A program made the position numbers and the translations under genes. 64,000 nt of DNA from contig BPGH01000001.1 in NCBI GenBank assembly GCA_026002935.1, positions 2,693,250 through 2,757,249 on the forward strand, written 5' to 3'. Below, one piece after another: positions 25,225-34,967 of the stretch. Under the pieces are notes generated by a model. That model had not been told where the DNA came from. It worked only from the letters and a program-made list of their open reading frames with translations, and made no database searches. The DNA comes from Acidimicrobiia bacterium (lineage in GTDB: Bacteria > Actinomycetota > Acidimicrobiia > IMCC26256 > PALSA-610). The first letter of the stretch is position 1, and each line of letters begins with the position of its first letter.

Positions 25225-25253
25225 TTGCACGCGGTGTGAAGGATTCGTAGGGT
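25225..25253 (+). promoter_or_regulatory. Sigma-70-like promoter of the TetR-transporter operon
   Basis: TTGCAC (25225-25230) and TAGGGT (25248-25253) are separated by 17 bases, one of the best -35/-10 pairs in the window. A 24-codon ORF starts nine bases after the -10, followed by tetR and the transporter genes. Confidence 0.6.
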
Positions 25254-25262
25254 GACCGCCCG

Positions 25263-25337
25263 ATGAGCGAGGGCCACGGGGGGACGGCGCGCCACCGGCG
25301 ACGCCCGGACGCGGCCCGAGCGGGCGGCCCGCGGTGA
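25263..25337 (+). CDS. Possible 24-residue leader peptide overlapping tetR
   Basis: An ATG nine bases after the TAGGGT -10 opens a 24-codon frame (MSEGHGG, then an Arg-rich stretch and RAGGPR). Its TGA overlaps the GTG of the TetR gene. This position suits a leaderless short ORF that delivers ribosomes to the regulator gene. There is no homology evidence for the peptide itself. Confidence 0.35.
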   Translation: MSEGHGGTARHRRRPDAARAGGPR

Positions 25338-25930
25338 GCGTGACCCCCGTCAGCGACGGCCGCACCGCCCGCTCGCGGCGCACCCGGGTCGCGGTCGTCG
25401 ACGCCGTCCTGCGGCTCCTGCGCTCCGGCAAGCTCCGCCCGACCGCGCGCGAGATCGCCAGCGAGGCCGGCGTCTCCGTCCGCTCGGTCTACGTGCACTT
25501 CGACGACCTCGACGACCTGTTCGTCGCGGCCGCGGAGCGCCAGTACGAGCTGCTGCGGCCGCTGCTCGTCACGGTGCCGGCCACGGGCCCGCTGCGCGAG
25601 CGCGCCCGCGCGCTCGCGCGTGCGCGCGGCACGATCTTCGAGACCGTCGGCGAGGTGCGCCGCGCCGCGCACGTGCACGCCCCGTTCTCCCCCGCGCTGG
25701 CCGCGCGGCTGTCGGTCGCGCGCGAGTGGTCCCACGCGGAGCTGCGGCGGGTCTTCGCCGCCGAGCTCGCCGGCCTCGGCGAACCCGCGCGGACCCGCCG
25801 CCTGGCCGCGCTGCACGTGCTCACCGGCCCCGACGCGTGGGCCGAGCTGCGGGCGACCCCGCTCGACGAGGAGGCCGCCGCCGACGCGACGGCGTACGCG
25901 ATCGTCGCCCTGTTGGAGGCACGGCCGTGA
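25334..25930 (+). CDS. TetR/AcrR family transcriptional regulator
   Basis: The 198 residues have an N-terminal helix-turn-helix (RRTRVAVVDAVLRLL, then REIASEAGVSVRSVYVHF at about 40-57 and DDLDDLF) and a variable helical ligand domain, as in TetR repressors. It is the first full gene of the operon and overlaps the permease gene by four bases, so it most likely senses the transported compound or a CoA derivative of it and controls its own operon. The ligand is unknown. Confidence 0.88.
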   Translation: MSVTPVSDGRTARSRRTRVAVVDAVLRLLRSGKLRPTAREIASEAGVSVRSVYVHFDDLDDLFVAAAERQYELLRPLLVTVPATGPLRERARALARARGTIFETVGEVRRAAHVHAPFSPALAARLSVAREWSHAELRRVFAAELAGLGEPARTRRLAALHVLTGPDAWAELRATPLDEEAAADATAYAIVALLEARP

Positions 25931-28239
25931 GCACGCGCGCCGACGGCGCCGTCGCGGCGACGGCGGCGGCGCTCGCCGCCGGCACCCTGGCCTCGGTGGC
26001 GGTCCTCGGGCTCGAGCCGGGCCGGGGGACCGAGCTCGTGCTGTGCGCCGTCGCCGTCGGTGCGCTCGTAGCGTTCGACGTGCGCGCCGACGGTCGCCTG
26101 GCCCGGCTCTCGTGGCTCGTCCCCCTCCTCGCGATGCTCGCCGTCGCGGACGTGTTCTGGAGCCCCAGCCGGGGCGTGGTGCTCCAGGGCGCGGTGATCG
26201 GCGCGCTGACCGCGCTCATGGCCGTGGGGCTCGCGGTCGTGTACCGCGCGAACCGGATCATCAACTTCGCACAGGGCGACCTCGGCGCGGTCCCCGCGGT
26301 GTTCGTGCTCCTGCTCCTCGCCGGCGACGCGCCGGGCGGTGCCCCCCACTGGATGACCGGCCTCCCCTACCCGGTCGCGTTCGCGCTCGGGGTCGCGGCG
26401 GCGGCCTTCGTCGGGTTCGTCGTGGAGCGCACGATCATCAACCGCTTCTCCCGCTCGCCGCGGCTCGTGCTCACGGTGGCGACGATCGGGCTCGCGCAGC
26501 TCCTCACCGCACTGACGCTCTTCATGCCGGGCTGGTTCGGCCTCGACGCGCTGCAGATCCCCACGCTCGACCCGCCCTTCGACGCGACGATGACGGTCGG
26601 CGGCGTCAACTTCGACGAGAACTGGGTCATGGTGATGGTCACCGTGCCGGTCGTGCTGACGCTGCTCGCCCTGTTCCTCCGGTACACGCGCACCGGCATC
26701 GCCGTGCGGGCCGTCGCGGAGCGGGCCGACCGCGCGTCCACCCTCGGCGTGCCCATCGGGCGCGTCCAGTCCACGGTGTGGGTGATCGTCGCGGTGTTCG
26801 CGTTCGTCACGATCTTCCTGCGCACCGGCGTCGCGAGCTTCCCGGTCGGCAGCGCGCTGGGGACCAGCGTGCTCGTCCCCGCGCTGGCGGCGGCCGTGAT
26901 CGGCCGCATGGAGCACTTCGCACGCATCACCGCCGCGGCGGTCGGCCTCGGCGTCGTGGAACAGGCGATCGTCATCGACACCGGACGGCGGGTCGAGGTG
27001 TTCCCGGTGCTGTTCCTGTTCGTCGTCGCCGGTCTCGCCCTCAACCGCCGCCGGCGCGAGAGCCGCGTCGTGGACCAGGCGGTCTCGACCTGGCAGGCCG
27101 CTCCCGAGATGCGGCCGATCCCCAAGCAGCTCCGGCGGCTGCCCGAGGTGCGCTGGCCGCGCCTCGCCCTGTTCGCGGCCGTCGGGGTGTTCGTCGTCAC
27201 CCTGCCGCTGTGGATGTCGAACGCCCGGCTCACGATCGCGACCGCGACCGCGATCATCGGCCTCGTCGCGGTCAGCCTGGTGGTGCTGACCGGCTGGGCC
27301 GGGCACGTGAGCCTCGGCCAGCTGGCGTTCGCCGGGATCGGCGCCGCGACGGCCGTGTACCTCACCCAGGAGGTCCGGCTCGTGTTCTTCTGGGCGCTGG
27401 TCGCGGCCGGCGCGGTCGGGGCGCTCGTCGCGGTCGCGGTCGGGCTGCCGGCCGTGCGGGCGGGCGGGCTCACCTATGCCGTCACGACGCTCACGCTCAC
27501 GCTCCCCGTCGCCTACTGGCTCCTCAACACCGAGTACTTCGAGTGGGTGCCGCGGGGCCGGTTCGAGCACGAGGCGGAGCTGTTCCCGGGCGTCGTGGTC
27601 GACTCGCCGCGCGCGTTCTACACGGTGAGCCTGGTCGCGCTCGCGATCGCCGTCGCCGCCGCGGTCGCGATGCGCCGGAGCCGCACGGGGCGCCTGCTGA
27701 TCGCGCTGCGCGACAACCCGCGCGGCGCCGAGGCGTACGGCGTGAACGCGATCCGGTCGACGCTCGTCGGCTTCGCGTTCTCGGGGTTCCTCGCGGCCGT
27801 CGCCGGCGCACTGTTCGTGCACAACCAGCACTTCGTGAACCAGAACTTCGGCTTCGCCAACCCCTTCTCCCCGGAGGAGTCGATTCGCGTGTTCGCGATC
27901 GTCGTGATCGGCGGGCTCGGGTCGGTGCCCGGGGCGATCCTCGGCACCGTCTACGTCTTCTTCGTGCAGTACGAGCTGCCGTACGAGTGGCGGTTCCTGG
28001 CGACCGGCGTCGGGCTGCTGCTCGTCCTGCTGATCCTCCCGGGCGGCCTCGGCGCCGGCCTGGCCGAGGGCCGCGACGGGCTGTTGCGGTTCGTCGCGCG
28101 GCGGCGCGGGATCGTGGTCCCGAGCCTGCTGGCCGACCGCAAGGTCGAGGACGTCCCGGCTTCGGCCGACCTCGCGTCCGCGGTCGCGGACGCGACCGAG
28201 CGGCCGGAGATCGAGGAGATCGCGGAGTTGCAGCAGTGA
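25927..28239 (+). CDS. Fused LivH-LivM branched-chain-type ABC permease
   Basis: The 770-residue membrane protein joins the two permeases of a hydrophobic amino acid transporter. The LivH half contains YRANRIINFAQGDLGAVPA (about 108-126) and the coupling-helix region RAVAERADRASTLGV. After a cytoplasmic linker with RRLPEVRWPR (about 400), the LivM half contains GWAGHVSLGQLAFAGIGAA (about 456-474) and RDNPRGAEAYGVNAIRSTL. Separate genes are the rule in E. coli, although LivHM fusions exist. The GTG overlaps the tetR stop (GTGA), and its own stop overlaps the next start in the same way. Confidence 0.92.
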   Translation: MSTRADGAVAATAAALAAGTLASVAVLGLEPGRGTELVLCAVAVGALVAFDVRADGRLARLSWLVPLLAMLAVADVFWSPSRGVVLQGAVIGALTALMAVGLAVVYRANRIINFAQGDLGAVPAVFVLLLLAGDAPGGAPHWMTGLPYPVAFALGVAAAAFVGFVVERTIINRFSRSPRLVLTVATIGLAQLLTALTLFMPGWFGLDALQIPTLDPPFDATMTVGGVNFDENWVMVMVTVPVVLTLLALFLRYTRTGIAVRAVAERADRASTLGVPIGRVQSTVWVIVAVFAFVTIFLRTGVASFPVGSALGTSVLVPALAAAVIGRMEHFARITAAAVGLGVVEQAIVIDTGRRVEVFPVLFLFVVAGLALNRRRRESRVVDQAVSTWQAAPEMRPIPKQLRRLPEVRWPRLALFAAVGVFVVTLPLWMSNARLTIATATAIIGLVAVSLVVLTGWAGHVSLGQLAFAGIGAATAVYLTQEVRLVFFWALVAAGAVGALVAVAVGLPAVRAGGLTYAVTTLTLTLPVAYWLLNTEYFEWVPRGRFEHEAELFPGVVVDSPRAFYTVSLVALAIAVAAAVAMRRSRTGRLLIALRDNPRGAEAYGVNAIRSTLVGFAFSGFLAAVAGALFVHNQHFVNQNFGFANPFSPEESIRVFAIVVIGGLGSVPGAILGTVYVFFVQYELPYEWRFLATGVGLLLVLLILPGGLGAGLAEGRDGLLRFVARRRGIVVPSLLADRKVEDVPASADLASAVADATERPEIEEIAELQQ

Positions 28240-31200
28240 CCGCCGCCGGGTACCCGCCGCGCACCGTGCTCTTCCGCCTCGGGCGGATCGAGGTCCACAA
28301 GCCGCGCGGGCCGCGCCGGTACTTCGACGAGATCAGCGGCGGGGCGGCGCTCTTCCCCCTGCTCGTGCTGTTCGGGCTCAACGCGGTCGACGAGCTGGAC
28401 CGCACCGTCTTCGGCATCCTCGGGCCGGAGATCCGCGACCACTTCGGGCTGACCAACCAGGGCTACCTGTCGGTGATCGCCCTCACGCTGCTCGGCGGGC
28501 TGCTGCTCGAGATCCCACTGGCGTACTACGCGGACCGCCTGCCGCGGGCGCGCATCGCGGTGCTCGGCGCCGCGGTGTGGGCCGTCTTCGGCCTGATGAC
28601 GGGCCTCGCGACGTCCATCCTCATGCTCGTCATCGCCCGCTCCGGCGCCGGGATGGGCCGCGCGGTCGTCACCCCCACGCACAACTCCCTGCTGTCCGAC
28701 TACTACCCGATCGCGGTGCGCGCCGAGGTCTACGGCTTCCACCGCATCGCGAACGCGCTCGGCGCGTTCCTCGGCCCGTTGGTCGGCGGTCTCCTCGCCG
28801 AGTACTTCGGCTGGCGCGTGCCGTTCTTCGTGTTCGTCGTGCCGACGGTCGTGCTCGTGATCGTCGGGCTGCGCCTGCGCGAGCCGGGCCGGGGGCACTA
28901 CGAGCGGGCGGCCGCCGGGGCCGAGGAGGCGGTGGTCGCCACCGACGAGGCGCCGCCGTCGTGGGCGGAGTCGGTGCGGATCCTCTGGCAGGTCCGCACC
29001 CTGCGCCGCATCTGGTTCTCGCTGCCGTTCCTCGCGGCGTCGGTGATCGGGCTCGTCAGCCTCACGTCGCTGTACTACGAGGAGATCTTCGCGCTGTCCG
29101 AGGCCCAGCGCGGCTACGTCGCGGCGGTGGCCGAGCCCGCGCAGATCCTCGGGATCACGCTCGGCATCCCGCTGGCCTCGCGGCTCATGCTCCGGGATCC
29201 CGGCCTCGGCCTGCGCATGCTGTCGCTCGTCGCGATCGGCATCGCGGGCGCGTGGGTCGCGTACGCGCTCGCCCCGGCGATCGGCGTCGCGATCGCCGCG
29301 AACATCGTGATCTCCGGGCTCGCCGCGCTGCTCGCCCCCGGCATCTTCGCGTCGCTGTCGCTCGCGATCCCGCCGAAGGTGCGGTCGCTCGGCTTCTCGA
29401 TGGCCTCGCTGTTCGTGCTCCCCGGCCTGATCATCCTCTACATGGTCGGCGGCATCGCCGACCGGTGGGGCATCCGCCAGGGGATGCTCATCATGGTCCC
29501 CGTGTTCCTGGTCGGCGCGTGGATCCTGTCGTCCGCGTCGCTGTTCGTGCGCGCCGACATCAGCCGCGTCTGGACGTCGACCGCCGCGCAGGCGGAGGTG
29601 CGGTACCAGCGCAGCCAGGGGCTCGTGAAGCTGCTCCTCGTCCGCAACCTCGACGTCAGCTACGACAACGTCCAGGTGCTGTTCGGCGTGAACTTCGAGA
29701 TCGACGAGGGCGAGATCGTCGCCCTGCTCGGCACGAACGGCGCGGGCAAGTCGACCCTCCTCAAGGCCATCGCGGGCGTCGTCCCGGCCGACGGCGGCGC
29801 GATCGTCTTCGACGGCCGTGACGCCACCTACGCGCCGCCGTACGAGATCGCCGCGCGCGGCATCACGATGGTCCCCGGCGGCCAGGGGGTGTTCCCGTCG
29901 CTCACGGTCGCCGAGAACCTGCGCCTCGCCGGCTGGCTGATCACCGACCGGGCCGAGCGCGAGGCAGCGGTCGGGCGCGTGCTCGACCGGTTCCCCGTGC
30001 TGCGCTCGCGCCTGGGCGAGCCGGCCGCGAACCTGAGCGGCGGCCAGCAGCAGATGCTCACCCTCGGCATGTCGCTGCTCACGCGACCGCGGCTGCTGAT
30101 GATCGACGAGCTGTCGCTCGGCCTCGCGCCGAGCATCGTCGCCGAGCTGCTGGAGGCGGTGAAGGCCCTGCGGGAGCAGGGCACGACGGTCATCCTCGTC
30201 GAGCAGTCGGTGAACGTCGCGCTCACGGTCGCCGAGACCGCCTACTTCATGGAGAAGGGCGAGATCCGCTTCCACGGGCCGACGGCCGAGCTGCTCGGGC
30301 GACCCGACGTGCTGCGCTCGGTCTTCCTCGAGGGCGCGGCGTCGGTCGAGCCGAACGGCGCGCGGGCGGGACGCGTCGAGGTGCGGGAGGCGGAGCCCGC
30401 GGCGGCTCCGTCGGGCAACGGCGCGTCGGGCCACCCGCGCCTCGCGCTCGTGGACGTCACGAAGAACTTCGGCGGCATCGCGGCGCTGCGCGACGTCACG
30501 CTCGAGGTGCGTGCCGGCGAGGTGCTCGGTTTCCTCGGGCCCAACGGCGCCGGCAAGACGACCCTGTTCGACGTGATCTCGGGGTTCCTGGCCGCCGACC
30601 GCGGGGAGGTGCTCCTCGACGGGCGGCCGATCGGCGGGCTCGGCCCCGACGCGCGCGCGCGGCGAGGGCTCGGCCGCTCGTTCCAGGACGGCCGGCTGTT
30701 CCCCGCGCTCACCGTGGAGGAGAACATCGCGCTCGCGTGCGGCCACCACGTCGACGGCCGCGGCGGACGCGCCCGCGCGCTGCGGCTCCCGTCGCCCGCC
30801 ACCCGGCGCGCCGTGCGCGCCCGGGTCGACGAGCTGATCGAGCTCCTCGGGCTCGAGGCCTTCCGCGAGAAGTACGCGCGCGAGCTGTCGACCGGCAGCC
30901 GCCGGATCGTCGACCTGGCGTGCGTCCTCGCGCACGAGCCGCGCGTGCTGCTGCTCGACGAGCCGTCCTCGGGCATCGCCCAGAAGGAGGCCGAGGCGCT
31001 CGGGCCGCTGCTGCTGCGGATCCGCGCGATGACCGGCGCGAGCCTGCTCGTCATCGAGCACGACGTGCCGCTGCTCACCTCGATCGTCGACCGCATGGTC
31101 GCGCTCGACCTGGGCGAGGTCGTCCGCATCGGGACCGCCGAGGAGGTCGTGCACGATCCCCGGGTCGTGGCGTCGTACCTCGGGGATTCGGGCGCTGTCG

Positions 31201-31244
31201 TCGCGCGCAGTGGCCCGCGCGACACCGGGACACGGGACACCTGA
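28236..31244 (+). CDS. MFS transporter-LivF-LivG triple fusion protein
   Basis: One uninterrupted 1002-residue frame encodes three modules. Residues 1-465 are a major facilitator transporter with motif A-like YYADRLPRARI and about 12 membrane segments. Residues 466-700 are a LivF-type ATPase with Walker A LLGTNGAGKST, signature LSGGQQQML, Walker B LLMIDE and VEQ. After a Pro/Ala/Gly linker, residues 735-990 are a LivG-type ATPase with Walker A GPNGAGKTT, the variant signature LSTGSRR, Walker B LLLDEPSSG and IEHD. The upstream gene supplies both permeases, so this protein should power the importer and carry a secondary transporter with it. GTG/TGA overlap with livHM shows tight coupling. The MFS substrate is unknown. 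Confidence 0.9.
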   Translation: MTAAGYPPRTVLFRLGRIEVHKPRGPRRYFDEISGGAALFPLLVLFGLNAVDELDRTVFGILGPEIRDHFGLTNQGYLSVIALTLLGGLLLEIPLAYYADRLPRARIAVLGAAVWAVFGLMTGLATSILMLVIARSGAGMGRAVVTPTHNSLLSDYYPIAVRAEVYGFHRIANALGAFLGPLVGGLLAEYFGWRVPFFVFVVPTVVLVIVGLRLREPGRGHYERAAAGAEEAVVATDEAPPSWAESVRILWQVRTLRRIWFSLPFLAASVIGLVSLTSLYYEEIFALSEAQRGYVAAVAEPAQILGITLGIPLASRLMLRDPGLGLRMLSLVAIGIAGAWVAYALAPAIGVAIAANIVISGLAALLAPGIFASLSLAIPPKVRSLGFSMASLFVLPGLIILYMVGGIADRWGIRQGMLIMVPVFLVGAWILSSASLFVRADISRVWTSTAAQAEVRYQRSQGLVKLLLVRNLDVSYDNVQVLFGVNFEIDEGEIVALLGTNGAGKSTLLKAIAGVVPADGGAIVFDGRDATYAPPYEIAARGITMVPGGQGVFPSLTVAENLRLAGWLITDRAEREAAVGRVLDRFPVLRSRLGEPAANLSGGQQQMLTLGMSLLTRPRLLMIDELSLGLAPSIVAELLEAVKALREQGTTVILVEQSVNVALTVAETAYFMEKGEIRFHGPTAELLGRPDVLRSVFLEGAASVEPNGARAGRVEVREAEPAAAPSGNGASGHPRLALVDVTKNFGGIAALRDVTLEVRAGEVLGFLGPNGAGKTTLFDVISGFLAADRGEVLLDGRPIGGLGPDARARRGLGRSFQDGRLFPALTVEENIALACGHHVDGRGGRARALRLPSPATRRAVRARVDELIELLGLEAFREKYARELSTGSRRIVDLACVLAHEPRVLLLDEPSSGIAQKEAEALGPLLLRIRAMTGASLLVIEHDVPLLTSIVDRMVALDLGEVVRIGTAEEVVHDPRVVASYLGDSGAVVARSGPRDTGTRDT

Positions 31245-31258
31245 CACGGGACACCTGA
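31230..31258 (+). repeat. Two tandem 14-base units straddling the fusion gene's stop
   Basis: ACACGGGACACCTGA occurs at 31230-31244 and again at 31244-31258. The first copy encodes the last residues and stop codon of the fusion protein; the second lies in the short gap before the binding-protein gene. A related GACACCGGGAC precedes them. Confidence 0.7.
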
Positions 31259-31273
31259 GACGGGGGGACTGAC

Positions 31274-32977
31274 ATGAGGGCAGCGACGGGTCGAGGCCGG
31301 GCGCGCGGCGCCGCGGTGCGCGCGCTGGCGATCCTGGCCGTCGCCGCGTTCGCGGCGAGCGGCTGCACCGCGGGCGGCGACGACGAGGACGGTGGGCAGC
31401 CCGCGCCCGGCGACGGCGGCGAGGGCGGCGAGCTGCCGCTGATCTACCAGGAGGCCGTCGAGCAGGGCGTCGAGGACGAGATCGACTGGGGCGACACCTG
31501 CGACACCGAGCGCGGCCGCCTGAAGGTCCCGATCGTCGGCGCGGCGCCGTGCATCGAGCCGTGGGAGGAGGGCGCCGACAACGGCGGTGCGACCGCGCAG
31601 GGCGTGACCGCCGACGAGATCGTGATCGCGCTCTACAAGGGCCAGCCCGACCCGCTCCAGAGCGCGATCGTCGAGGGCGCGGGCGCCGACACCGACCCCG
31701 AGCTCGTCCACCAGACGGCGATCGACTACCTGCGGATGTTCGAGGACCTCTACGAGACCTACGGGCGCAAGCTCCGGATCGAGACGATCGAGGCCACGGG
31801 CGGGCCGGCCGACTCCACCGCCGCGGTCGCCGACGCCCAGAAGGTGATCGACCTGAAGCCGTTCGCCGCGATCGGCGGGCCCGGCCAGACGCCCGCGTAC
31901 TGGCAGGCGGTCGTCGACGCCGGGATCCTGTGCGTCGGGGGCTGCTCGGTCGCCGAGCCGTGGGACGCCGTCGAGGACGCCGCCCCCTACCTCTGGCCGA
32001 CCGCCCACGCGCCCGAGCAGGCCGACGCGCACCTCGTCGAGCTGATCGGCAAGCAGCTCGCCGGCGAGCCCGTGTCGTTCGCCGGCGACGAGTCGCTCAA
32101 CGGCCAGGAGCGCGTGTTCGGCTGGGTGCAGGCCGAGACCGAGGCCGGCGAGTACGCCGAACGCGTCGAGGCGGCCACGGCCCGCCTCGAGGAGGAGTAC
32201 GGCGTGGAGTTCGCGACCACGACCAGCTACATCTACGACCCCGCGAACGCCGCCCAGATCGCGACGACGACCGTGCAGCGCCTCAAGCAGGCGGGCGTGA
32301 CGACCGTCGTCCTGTCGACCGACCCGCTCATCCCGGCCGACATCTCGAAGGAGGCGACGAAGCAGGGCTACTTCCCCGAGTGGGTGCTCGGGCCGAGCGT
32401 GCTCATGGACACGACGATCTTCGGGCGCCGCATGGACCAGGAGCAGTGGTCGCACATGATCGGCATCTCGCTGCCGGCCGCCCGTGGCGAGCGCGAGATC
32501 GGCGACTCGTACCGCGTCTACGAGTGGTACTACGGCAAGGAGCCGCCGGTGAACAGCCAGGCGGTGATCATCCCCGGCCCCGCGCAGCTGATGCTCGGCA
32601 TCCACCTCGCCGGGCCGAACCTGACCCCCGAGACGTTCCGCGACGGGCTGTTCCGGTACCCGCCGAACGAGCCCGGCCTCACGTACACCTACGTGTCGTG
32701 GGGCGAGGACCTGTGGGACCGCACCGACTACAACGCCGCCGACGACGCCGGGGCGCTGTGGTGGGACCCGCAGGCCGAGGGCGAGGACGAGGCGGGCAAC
32801 CCCGGGGTGGGGATGCTCCGCTACGTGAACGGCGGGGAGCGGTACCTGCCCGGCGAGTGGCCCGAGGAGCCGCTGCCGTTCTTCGAGGTGGAGGGCTCGG
32901 TCACCGTCTACGACGAGCGTCCCGACGCCGCGCCCGACTACCCGGCCTGGCCCGGCTCCCCCGCCGCGTCCGGCTGA
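31274..32977 (+). CDS. ABC transporter substrate-binding lipoprotein (LivJ-like, periplasmic binding fold I)
   Basis: The 567-residue precursor has an Arg-rich signal peptide ending in the lipobox FAASGCTAGG (Cys near residue 32), then an acidic Gly/Asp linker. The body shows the leucine-binding fold: VTADEIVIALYKG, AAVADAQKVIDLKPFAAIGG, and a hinge-like second lobe with TTTVQRLKQAGVTTVVLSTD. It is about 170 residues longer than typical LivJ, with an extended N-terminal part and a C-terminal tail. As the last gene of the operon, it should deliver substrate to the LivHM fusion. RBS: GGGGGG, eight bases before the ATG. Confidence 0.87.
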   Translation: MRAATGRGRARGAAVRALAILAVAAFAASGCTAGGDDEDGGQPAPGDGGEGGELPLIYQEAVEQGVEDEIDWGDTCDTERGRLKVPIVGAAPCIEPWEEGADNGGATAQGVTADEIVIALYKGQPDPLQSAIVEGAGADTDPELVHQTAIDYLRMFEDLYETYGRKLRIETIEATGGPADSTAAVADAQKVIDLKPFAAIGGPGQTPAYWQAVVDAGILCVGGCSVAEPWDAVEDAAPYLWPTAHAPEQADAHLVELIGKQLAGEPVSFAGDESLNGQERVFGWVQAETEAGEYAERVEAATARLEEEYGVEFATTTSYIYDPANAAQIATTTVQRLKQAGVTTVVLSTDPLIPADISKEATKQGYFPEWVLGPSVLMDTTIFGRRMDQEQWSHMIGISLPAARGEREIGDSYRVYEWYYGKEPPVNSQAVIIPGPAQLMLGIHLAGPNLTPETFRDGLFRYPPNEPGLTYTYVSWGEDLWDRTDYNAADDAGALWWDPQAEGEDEAGNPGVGMLRYVNGGERYLPGEWPEEPLPFFEVEGSVTVYDERPDAAPDYPAWPGSPAASG

Positions 32978-33030: not shown

Positions 33031-33147
33031 CCGTGGTCACTGCGGACGCGACATCTCGCGTTGACGGTGACCACGGGCGCAACAGCGCAGGGCCGAACGG
33101 GCCGTGGTCACCGCGGACGCGACATCTCGCGTTCACGGTGACCACGG
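33031..33147. repeat. Two tandem copies of a 46-base hairpin (REP-like) repeat
   Basis: Copies at 33031-33076 and 33102-33147 differ at only two positions. Each has outer arms CCGTGGTCAC and GTGACCACGG, which pair, and an inner ACGCGA-CATC-TCGCGT hairpin. The spacer is 25 bases. They sit between the convergent ends of the binding-protein and acyltransferase genes, so they may also terminate transcription. A 15-base duplication (CGTCCGGCCGGCCCG) lies just before them. Apart from these repeats, nothing else is visible in 32978-33254. Confidence 0.85.
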
Positions 33148-33254: not shown

Positions 33255-33893
33255 TCAGGCGTCCGCGCTCGTCCAGCCCGCGCCGGGCACGTGGCGGCGC
33301 ACGACGCGCGCGGGCACGCCCGCGACGACCGAGAAGTCGGGCACCTCGAGGCCGGCGACGACCGCGCCGGCGGCGACGACGACGTGGCGGCCGAGCCGGG
33401 TCCCGGGCAGGATCACCGCGCCGTGCCCGAGCCACGAGTCGGAGCCGATCACGACCGGTTCGTTCTTCCACATCTGGGTGCCGATCGGCAGGTCGAGGTC
33501 CTCGTAGCCGTGGTTCTGGTCGGTGACGTAGACGTAGTGCCCCGTCCACACGTCGTCGCCGATCTCGATCCGCTCGTGGCCGACGATCCCGATCCCCTTG
33601 CCGAGCATGCAGCGGTCGCCGATCGTGATGACCGGGTCGCCGCGCCAGCCCGCCTGCGACGGCATCCCGGCGGAGATGCTCGCGAGCGGCCCGATCGTGG
33701 AGTGCTCGCCGATCGCGATGCGGCCCTCGCCGAAGATCACGGTCTGCGGGAAGGCGATGAGGCTCCCCTCCCCGAAGGAGTGGAACGACCGCGCCCTGCG
33801 GTGGCGCGGGCCGATCGCGCCGTAACGCTGGACGCGCGTCCACAGCGCGTGGATCGCGTCGCCGACGAGGCGCCCCATCTCGTCCCGGAGCAT
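33255..33893 (-). CDS. Left-handed beta-helix (hexapeptide) acyltransferase
   Basis: The 212-residue protein carries hexapeptide turns from about residue 60 onward (VIFGEGRIAIGEHSTIGP, VITIGDRCMLGKGIGI, IEIGDDVWTGHYVYV, VVIGSDSWLGHGAVIL, VVVAAGAVVAGL) and ends with VVAGVPARVVR, the typical closing turn of NodL/LacA-like O-acetyltransferases. The catalytic His is probably in TDQNHGYEDL. It would acetylate a sugar or antibiotic-like hydroxyl. TACCCT (33905-33900, minus strand) is six bases before the ATG, a leaderless start back-to-back with the next gene's promoter. Confidence 0.87.
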   Translation of the reverse strand: MLRDEMGRLVGDAIHALWTRVQRYGAIGPRHRRARSFHSFGEGSLIAFPQTVIFGEGRIAIGEHSTIGPLASISAGMPSQAGWRGDPVITIGDRCMLGKGIGIVGHERIEIGDDVWTGHYVYVTDQNHGYEDLDLPIGTQMWKNEPVVIGSDSWLGHGAVILPGTRLGRHVVVAAGAVVAGLEVPDFSVVAGVPARVVRRHVPGAGWTSADA

Positions 33894-33923: not shown

Positions 33924-34967
33924 GTGAGCAGCGCGGCGCTCCCGGTCCGCATCGGCGTCCTGTACGACTTCCCGCAGGGGGACGACCTGTTCGAGCACGC
34001 GCTGCGGCTCGGGCTCGACACGGTGGTGCGGTCGGACCGCGTCGACCGCGGGTTCGAGCTGCTGCACCGGGAGGTGCGCGGCCTGCCCGCGGGCAGCGAG
34101 CACGCGGTCGTGACCGGGTTCCACGAGCTCGCCGACGACGGCGCGGTCGTGGTCGTCGGCCCCTCGATCTCCGACAACGCCCTCGTGGCCGCGCCGCTGG
34201 CGGACGCCCACCGCCTGCCGACCGTCAACTACTCGGGCGGTGAACGCACCCGCTCGGCGTGGATGTTCCACTACCAGGTCGGGTCGCTGGAAGAGGAGCC
34301 GCCGCTGCTCGTGCGGCGCATGACCGACCGGGGCCTGGGGCGTGCGGCCGTCGTGTACGACCGCTCGCCGGTCGGCCGCGGCTACCTCGACGCGTTCGAG
34401 GCCGCCCGGGTGCGCGCCGGCCTCGAGGTCGTCGCGTCGGTCGCCGTCCCCCCGCTGGTGGAGGACGCGGAACCGCTGCTGCACACGCTGCGCGCCGCCG
34501 AGCCCGACGTGCTCGTCTACCTCGGTCTCGGCGTCGCGTCACGCGCGGTCGCGCTGGCGCGCGGCCGTCTCGGCTGGGACGTCCCGGTGCTCGCGAACTC
34601 GGCGCTGATGTTCGGCTACGCACGTCCCGACTGGCGCGACGGCTACGCGGGCTGGGAGTACGTCGACACGGTCGCCGACGACAACCGGGTCCGCGCCGCG
34701 CTGCGGGAGCGCTCGGCGCGCGCGGCGGGCGGGCCGATCGGCTGTGCCGCGTACGACATCGGGCGGCTCGTCGGCGAGGCGGTGGCACGTGCGGACCACC
34801 TCACGCGCACCGGCGTCGCCGAGGGGCTGCGGCGCGTGAAGGGCCTGCCGGCGGCGAGCGGCCACGACGGCACCACGATGGGGTTCGGCGTCTACGACCA
34901 CGGCGCCCTGAAGGGCCCGTTCCTGGTCCTGCGCGCGTGGCGCGACGGCCGCACCGTGCAGGTCTGA
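33924..34967 (+). CDS. Substrate-binding-protein fold (LivJ-like) without signal peptide
   Basis: The 347-residue protein has the type I periplasmic-binding fold: RIGVLYDFPQGDD, ADDGAVVVVGPSISDNALVA, LPTVNYSGGERTRSAWMFH, and a second lobe with GRAAVVYDRSPVGRGYLDAF. No signal peptide or lipobox precedes it; the fold starts within ten residues of the GTG, which is fixed by the TAGGTT -10 six bases upstream. It may therefore act in the cytoplasm as a ligand sensor, or be an orphan. No permease genes adjoin it. Confidence 0.78.
   Translation: MSSAALPVRIGVLYDFPQGDDLFEHALRLGLDTVVRSDRVDRGFELLHREVRGLPAGSEHAVVTGFHELADDGAVVVVGPSISDNALVAAPLADAHRLPTVNYSGGERTRSAWMFHYQVGSLEEEPPLLVRRMTDRGLGRAAVVYDRSPVGRGYLDAFEAARVRAGLEVVASVAVPPLVEDAEPLLHTLRAAEPDVLVYLGLGVASRAVALARGRLGWDVPVLANSALMFGYARPDWRDGYAGWEYVDTVADDNRVRAALRERSARAAGGPIGCAAYDIGRLVGEAVARADHLTRTGVAEGLRRVKGLPAASGHDGTTMGFGVYDHGALKGPFLVLRAWRDGRTVQV

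Follow-up and report, generated by a model that had tools for sequence, protein, structure and literature searches.

MFS carriers joined to another functional domain are known from SK-MFS (TC 2.A.1.34) and other MFS fusions (PMC3924187), and the ArsA/ArsB arsenite pump provides an example of a secondary carrier able to work with an ATPase (PMC13381914). We describe here an operon in which an MFS domain is fused to both ATPases of an ABC transporter, whereas the partner in SK-MFS is a sensor kinase. The operon lies in a stretch of 64,000 nucleotides (hereafter the window; positions 2,693,250 to 2,757,249 of contig BPGH01000001.1, assembly GCA_026002935.1) from an Acidimicrobiia bacterium. The closest described importers are those of the HAAT family (LivFGHM-J, TC 3.A.1.4, including the Urt urea systems), with which the operon shares homologues of LivH, LivM, LivF and LivG, a lipoprotein of the Peripla_BP_6 type and a glutamine at the H-switch of LivF, as found in the unfused LivFs of the same genomes. 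It differs from them by an SPNS-like MFS domain on LivF, by the fusion of LivH to LivM and of LivF to LivG (or of LivM to LivG), by the motifs GTNGAGKST, LSGGQQQ and LSTG[ST]RR in its nucleotide-binding domains (NBDs) and by a binding protein of 567 residues. We call type 1 the pair LivH-LivM and MFS-LivF-LivG, and type 2 the pair MFS-LivF and LivH-LivM-LivG. The MFS domain resembles the SPNS carriers (HnSpns, SPNS1 and SPNS2) in the Asp of transmembrane segment 1 (TM1), the Arg and Asp of TM4 and motif A; it differs from them in being carried by an ABC ATPase, in the frequent replacement of the TM4 Glu by Arg or Lys and, in type 1, at the TM2 Asp and TM7 Arg. ArsA/ArsB may be taken as a conceptual precedent only: the families are unrelated, the two gene products are separate and associate, a metalloid is exported, and neither a binding protein nor an ABC permease is involved.

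The MFS-LivF-LivG fusion and its distribution

The fusion gene is an open frame of 1002 codons with a GTG start and no internal stop. Pfam detected MFS_1 at residues 46-382 followed by two ABC_tran stretches, for which the best NCBIfam fits were UrtE/LivF-like (residues 467-684) and UrtD/LivG-like (735-982), in the order given by a first-pass annotation of the window. The same annotation had placed a LivH-LivM fusion before this gene, a large binding lipoprotein after it and a TetR regulator at the head of the operon, and all three assignments were borne out (Table 1). NCBIfam scores of the permease for LivH, LivM, UrtB and UrtC were far under the cut-offs. The lipoprotein gave no Pfam match by itself, and Peripla_BP_6 was recognized in 16 of its 39 aligned relatives (best 4.3e-17). 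Searches of the PDB with LivHM or the lipoprotein, as single sequence or profile, gave no match. GTGA overlaps, annotated at all junctions, were found between TetR and LivHM and between LivHM and MFS-LivFG, whereas a gap of 29 bases precedes the lipoprotein gene. The data support the proposal that a branched-chain-type (HAAT) system is compressed here into LivHM, MFS-LivF-LivG and a single lipoprotein, and that its ATPases are covalently linked to a secondary carrier.

Relatives of the MFS domain in long frames (at least 45% MFS identity and at least 897 codons; our own tabulated count) occur in 47 of the 296 genomes of the class, with 45-75% identity. In 41 near genomes the frames are about 1000 codons long and also encode LivF and LivG, LivHM lying directly upstream. 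The core operon is the same in the type 1 loci examined, with LivHM adjoining in essentially all of them; the lipoprotein was called in 51 of 57 and TetR in 15 of 57, mostly at a position like that in the window. The type 1 fusion is also present in other classes of the phylum. A contig scan with the window MFS returned only weak Rahnella and Ewingella MFS matches. Neither a frameshift at the junctions nor a set of relatives with split genes only was seen: the apparent exceptions are mostly contig ends (G253, G203 and G040), G253 being the sole apparent split in a relative with an intact upstream gene. Since both fusion junctions were found in tens of independent assemblies, they do not stem from a local frameshift, and the MFS-LivF-LivG fusion is confirmed as real and conserved.

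Some type 1 loci depart from the common layout. The MFS part of L071 (G003:C12) is split over several frames, by pseudogenization or sequencing errors. A tandem of two large binding lipoprotein genes follows the MFS-LivFG gene in L061, L063, L068, L111, L113, L130 and L167. In four more distant loci (L157, L158, L159 and L161) a TgpA/transglutaminase-like gene shortly upstream replaces the usual neighbours.

A second fused architecture

The genome of the window contains two further systems, C1:2060000-2075000 and C1:1410000-1426000, both of type 2, in which an MFS-LivF gene (about 730 residues) is followed by a LivH-LivM-LivG gene (about 940 residues). This second architecture, like the SPNS-like nature of the MFS domain, had escaped the first-pass annotation. 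The type 2 gene pair was found in 24 loci, other families included, among them Embleya sp. NBC_00888 (NZ_CP108785.1, Streptomycetaceae); a plasmid search for more type 2 records returned Embleya only. Each LivHMFG set, of either type, comes with one MFS domain. Two intermediates (L150 and L151) encode MFS-LivF with LivG as a separate gene. In a single assembly (L136, G092:C115, 4371-9557), LivH-LivM-MFS-LivF-LivG form one frame of 1729 codons with a stop-free LivHM/MFS junction, which puts the whole transporter on one chain.

The MFS domain

Profiles of the type 1 and type 2 MFS domains aligned over 418 columns (E 7.6e-72). For both, the closest solved structures were HnSPNS (6e8j; 1.2e-25 for type 1 and 1.8e-26 for type 2), SPNS1 (9boi) and SPNS2, the match being strongest in the N-terminal half. 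Residues were therefore matched by a gapless N-terminal alignment to HnSPNS, with roles taken from PMC9440201. D55, R135 and D155, which correspond to HnSpns D41 (TM1), R122 (TM4) and D142 (TM4), are kept in 54, 53 and 57 of 58 type 1 proteins, respectively, and the motif A residues D100, R101 and R104 are retained. The TM1 Asp and the TM4 Arg are the proton-relay residues of SPNS carriers. The SPNS pair of TM2 Asp and TM7 Arg is mostly lost in type 1. R292 is present in 86 of 88 fused domains, in 4 of 9 standalone and in 1 of 7 outgroup MFS proteins. In HnSpns, Glu129 of TM4 is the intracellular protonation master switch (PMC9440201). The corresponding position is basic in 37 of 57 type 1 and 15 of 31 type 2 domains, and acidic in 7 and 3. 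With the TM4 Glu mostly replaced, ordinary proton coupling is doubtful, and for the same reason the domain, judged from its sequence, is called SPNS-like only and kept apart from SPNS members proper.

Mean pairwise identity over 39 complete loci was 48.7% for MFS, 46.7% for LivH, 49.4% for LivM, 69.4% for LivF, 61.6% for LivG and 38.9% for the binding protein. The MFS level is close to that of LivH and LivM, which argues that the domain is constrained like a working permease, though its proton chemistry has changed.

The MFS-LivF junction

From D441, an invariant residue at the end of TM12, to L467 of LivF, 26 residues were counted in 51 of 58 type 1 proteins; the corresponding spacing in type 2 is 27-28 residues in 26 of 31. 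In the same type 1 proteins, the H-switch of LivF and the Walker A motif of LivG lie 94 to 173 residues apart. The entropy of the MFS-LivF linker (1.97 bits) is close to that of the MFS core (1.91), whereas that of the LivF-LivG linker is 2.82. This pattern suggests that the MFS-LivF linker is structured and probably helical; its length lock is consistent with conformational coupling, short of proof. A single-sequence AlphaFold2 prediction of the window MFS-LivF was too poor for use (mean predicted local distance difference test score 43).

The ATPase domains

Walker A and B are intact in the window LivF and LivG. Fused LivFs carry the signature LSGGQQQ and the catalytic DELSLGLAP, and their H-switch residue is Gln (EQS) in 87 of 88, a residue common to unfused LivFs. 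Fused LivGs have an intact EHD. The variant signature LSTGSRR had been noted as a peculiarity of the window LivG; this has to be abandoned, as LSTG[ST]RR is the norm throughout both fused types, and the unfused LivGs of the same genomes show LPYGDQR, LSYGDQR and similar motifs where the motif was caught. Head-to-tail pairing of LivF and LivG is the usual ABC architecture, and it would place the variant signature of LivG and the Gln of LivF in the same composite site. By analogy, one site would be altered and the other canonical-looking.

Origin of the fusion

The window LivF shares 55-57% identity with the two other fused LivFs of its genome and only 42-46% with the unfused ones. Walker A reads GTNGAGK in fused LivFs almost without exception, and mostly GANGAGK or similar in unfused ones. 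When 134 LivF domains were placed in a tree, every fused LivF and four unfused GTNGAGK ones fell into one clade of 107. Two of these four branch basally, one lies at the base of type 2 and one is nested in type 1. In the MFS tree the 88 fused domains all grouped with four standalone ones (support 0.996), the latter nested in, or sister to, type 2. The simplest history, which we favour, would be a single MFS-LivF fusion, later attachment of LivG in two ways and rare releases; the root is not strongly supported, so that there may also have been multiple fusion events.

The unfused LivF nested in type 1 belongs to a LivF-LivG fusion without MFS (L195, G106:C8), a position that implies loss of the MFS. 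Standalone MFS genes in or beside the fused clade are those of L124 (G218), L144 (G577), L133 (G134) and L137 (G045). In L124 a binding protein directly follows the MFS gene and LivFG is missing, by true loss or misassembly. Standalone descendants nested in the fused clade suggest that the MFS may work alone.

Neighbouring genes

Around the 57 type 1 loci we found genes for AMP-binding acyl-CoA ligases (15), alpha/beta hydrolases (11) and enoyl-CoA hydratases (9). A Peripla_BP_6 protein, an amidohydrolase, a P450, a luciferase-like monooxygenase and an enoyl-CoA hydratase are encoded beside the type 2 systems of the window genome. These genes point weakly to lipophilic or aromatic acids as substrates, more than to amino acids. 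An amino-acid substrate by default and an E. coli-like Liv function were both rejected.

Downstream of the operon in the window, a second Peripla_BP_6 protein is encoded about 950 bases 3' of the lipoprotein gene. It is kept in the vicinity of 8 of the 57 type 1 operons, is probably a cytosolic sensor, and may sense a ligand in the manner of AmiC; we infer its tie to the transport system. Directly downstream of the operon lies a hexapeptide acyltransferase gene (33255-33893, minus strand), found in 18 of 57 loci, mostly on the opposite strand. Two tandem, near-identical palindromic elements of 46 bases (CCGTGGTCAC...GTGACCACGG) at 33031-33076 and 33102-33147 follow the lipoprotein gene and are possibly a terminator or an operator; a search of the genome allowing two mismatches gave no further copies.

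Table 1. Genes and domains of the operon, with positions in the window.
Feature	Position	Strand	Evidence
TetR-family regulator, operon lead	25334..25930	+	TetR_N 3.7e-7 (Pfam)
LivH-LivM fused permease, 770 residues	25927..28239	+	two BPD_transp_2 stretches, 6.3e-52; GTGA overlap with TetR
MFS-LivF-LivG triple fusion, 1002 residues	28236..31244	+	Pfam/NCBIfam; orthologues; GTGA overlap with LivHM
SPNS-like MFS domain, about residues 34-440	28335..29555	+	solved relatives HnSPNS 6e8j (1.2e-25), SPNS1 9boi, SPNS2
MFS-LivF linker from invariant D441, about 25 residues	29556..29630	+	near-constant length
LivF ATPase domain	29631..30341	+	Walker A GTNGAGKST, signature LSGGQQQ, DELSLGLAP, H-switch Gln (EQS)
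LivG ATPase domain	30441..31193	+	Walker A GPNGAGKTT, signature LSTGSRR, EHD
Large substrate-binding lipoprotein, 567 residues	31274..32977	+	lipobox-like ASGC; relatives match Peripla_BP_6
Second binding protein (Peripla_BP_6), without visible signal peptide	33924..34967	+	Peripla_BP_6 6.3e-24

Discussion

We propose, with moderate confidence, that the operon encodes a HAAT-type importer with an SPNS-like MFS carrier inside its ATPase subunit. One LivHM, one MFS-LivF-LivG and the lipoprotein would assemble into a complex, so that each importer would contain exactly one MFS. The substrate handed over by the lipoprotein and imported by the ABC part would most likely be a carboxylate of lipophilic or aromatic character, which would then be activated with coenzyme A. 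The MFS part may be a functional carrier and move an amphiphilic organic anion belonging to this pathway, whether substrate, overflow product or counter-ion, and the short, near-fixed and presumably helical linker would hold it beside LivF, so that the two could influence each other. Several observations weigh against this proposal. The Glu129 position (R142 in the window) is basic in 52 of the 88 fused domains and acidic in just 10; support for the whole GTN LivF clade is just 0.76; and the neighbouring genes vary among loci, which weakens the substrate class. L195, with LivF-LivG and no MFS, and the standalone MFS genes suggest that the ABC and MFS parts are separable. Moreover, we infer substrate, direction, MFS transport and coupling from the sequences.

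Explanations diverge on how the two parts would work together. The first-pass annotation had suggested that the MFS moves a counter-product or is a second permease linked to ATP use, and either may be the case. They may be co-localised and mechanically independent, an explanation to which we give nearly an even chance: the fusion would ensure 1:1 expression and proximity, with the MFS exporting an overflow or counter-product or serving as a second uptake route. The standalone MFS and MFS-free LivFG derivatives inside the fused clades argue for it, as do SPNS relatives capable of either direction (PMC13192786, preprint), although mere proximity would need no conserved linker of fixed length, and the fusion has been retained across families and classes. 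The near-locked linker length (26, or 27-28, residues, against 94-173 between LivF and LivG), its conservation at the level of the MFS core, the invariant D441 and the loss of the TM4 proton switch would rather fit an ATP-coupled hybrid, in which the LivF/LivG cycle would drive or gate the MFS by way of a rigid linker, or the MFS state would gate the ATPase; ATP use and MFS transport would then be linked mechanically, with ArsA/ArsB as a loose parallel. We nevertheless regard such a hybrid as rather unlikely, because segments inside the domains are also conserved in length, so that the lock may be an inherited compact junction, and because LivHM is always retained and leaves the NBDs their ordinary partner. 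Slightly less probable still is its more specific form, an ATPase pair coupled mechanically, by a helical linker of fixed length, both to its own permease and to an MFS that has lost its main proton switch, such that ATP drives or gates secondary-type transport within one complex. The mechanism may be either that of an independent co-localised carrier or that of a coupled hybrid.

It is improbable that the MFS domain transports nothing and simply anchors the ATPases to the membrane or serves as their scaffold. Loss of the TM4 Glu in most domains and, in type 1, of the TM2 Asp/TM7 Arg pair speaks for such a role, but the buried TM1 Asp, the TM4 Arg and Asp, motif A and the overall rate are kept; furthermore, HAAT NBDs need no anchor, and standalone MFS descendants persist. 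Finally, an assembly or frameshift artefact joining adjacent genes, to which only the odd single loci L071 (broken into several frames) and L136 (one frame for all five domains) could be credited, has virtually no chance and is refuted for the family as a whole by the tens of independent assemblies, the two architectures and the conserved linker.

The first-pass annotation had named the covalent link as the strongest candidate in the window for a little-described system, and we agree that it is little described: a literature search found no description of an MFS-LivF fusion in searchable papers, most subscription papers lying outside its coverage. Automated annotation databases almost certainly contain such proteins, so that our claim concerns absence of description, not absence from databases. 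This HAAT importer variant with an SPNS-like carrier is real and conserved, and apparently undescribed; new here are an SPNS-like MFS with its TM4 Glu mostly lost, its permease-like rate and the near-locked linker. Primary (ATP-driven) and secondary (gradient-driven) transporters are classed apart, and a widespread fusion of the two, apparently of a single origin, with one carrier for each ABC importer and a junction of near-locked length, offers a well-defined object for asking whether they can be coupled. Many genes whose present annotation is wrong or vague gain a testable role, and an SPNS-like carrier with altered proton switches offers a comparison for the medically important SPNS1 and SPNS2. 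The linker and residue data open the coupled explanation to testing.

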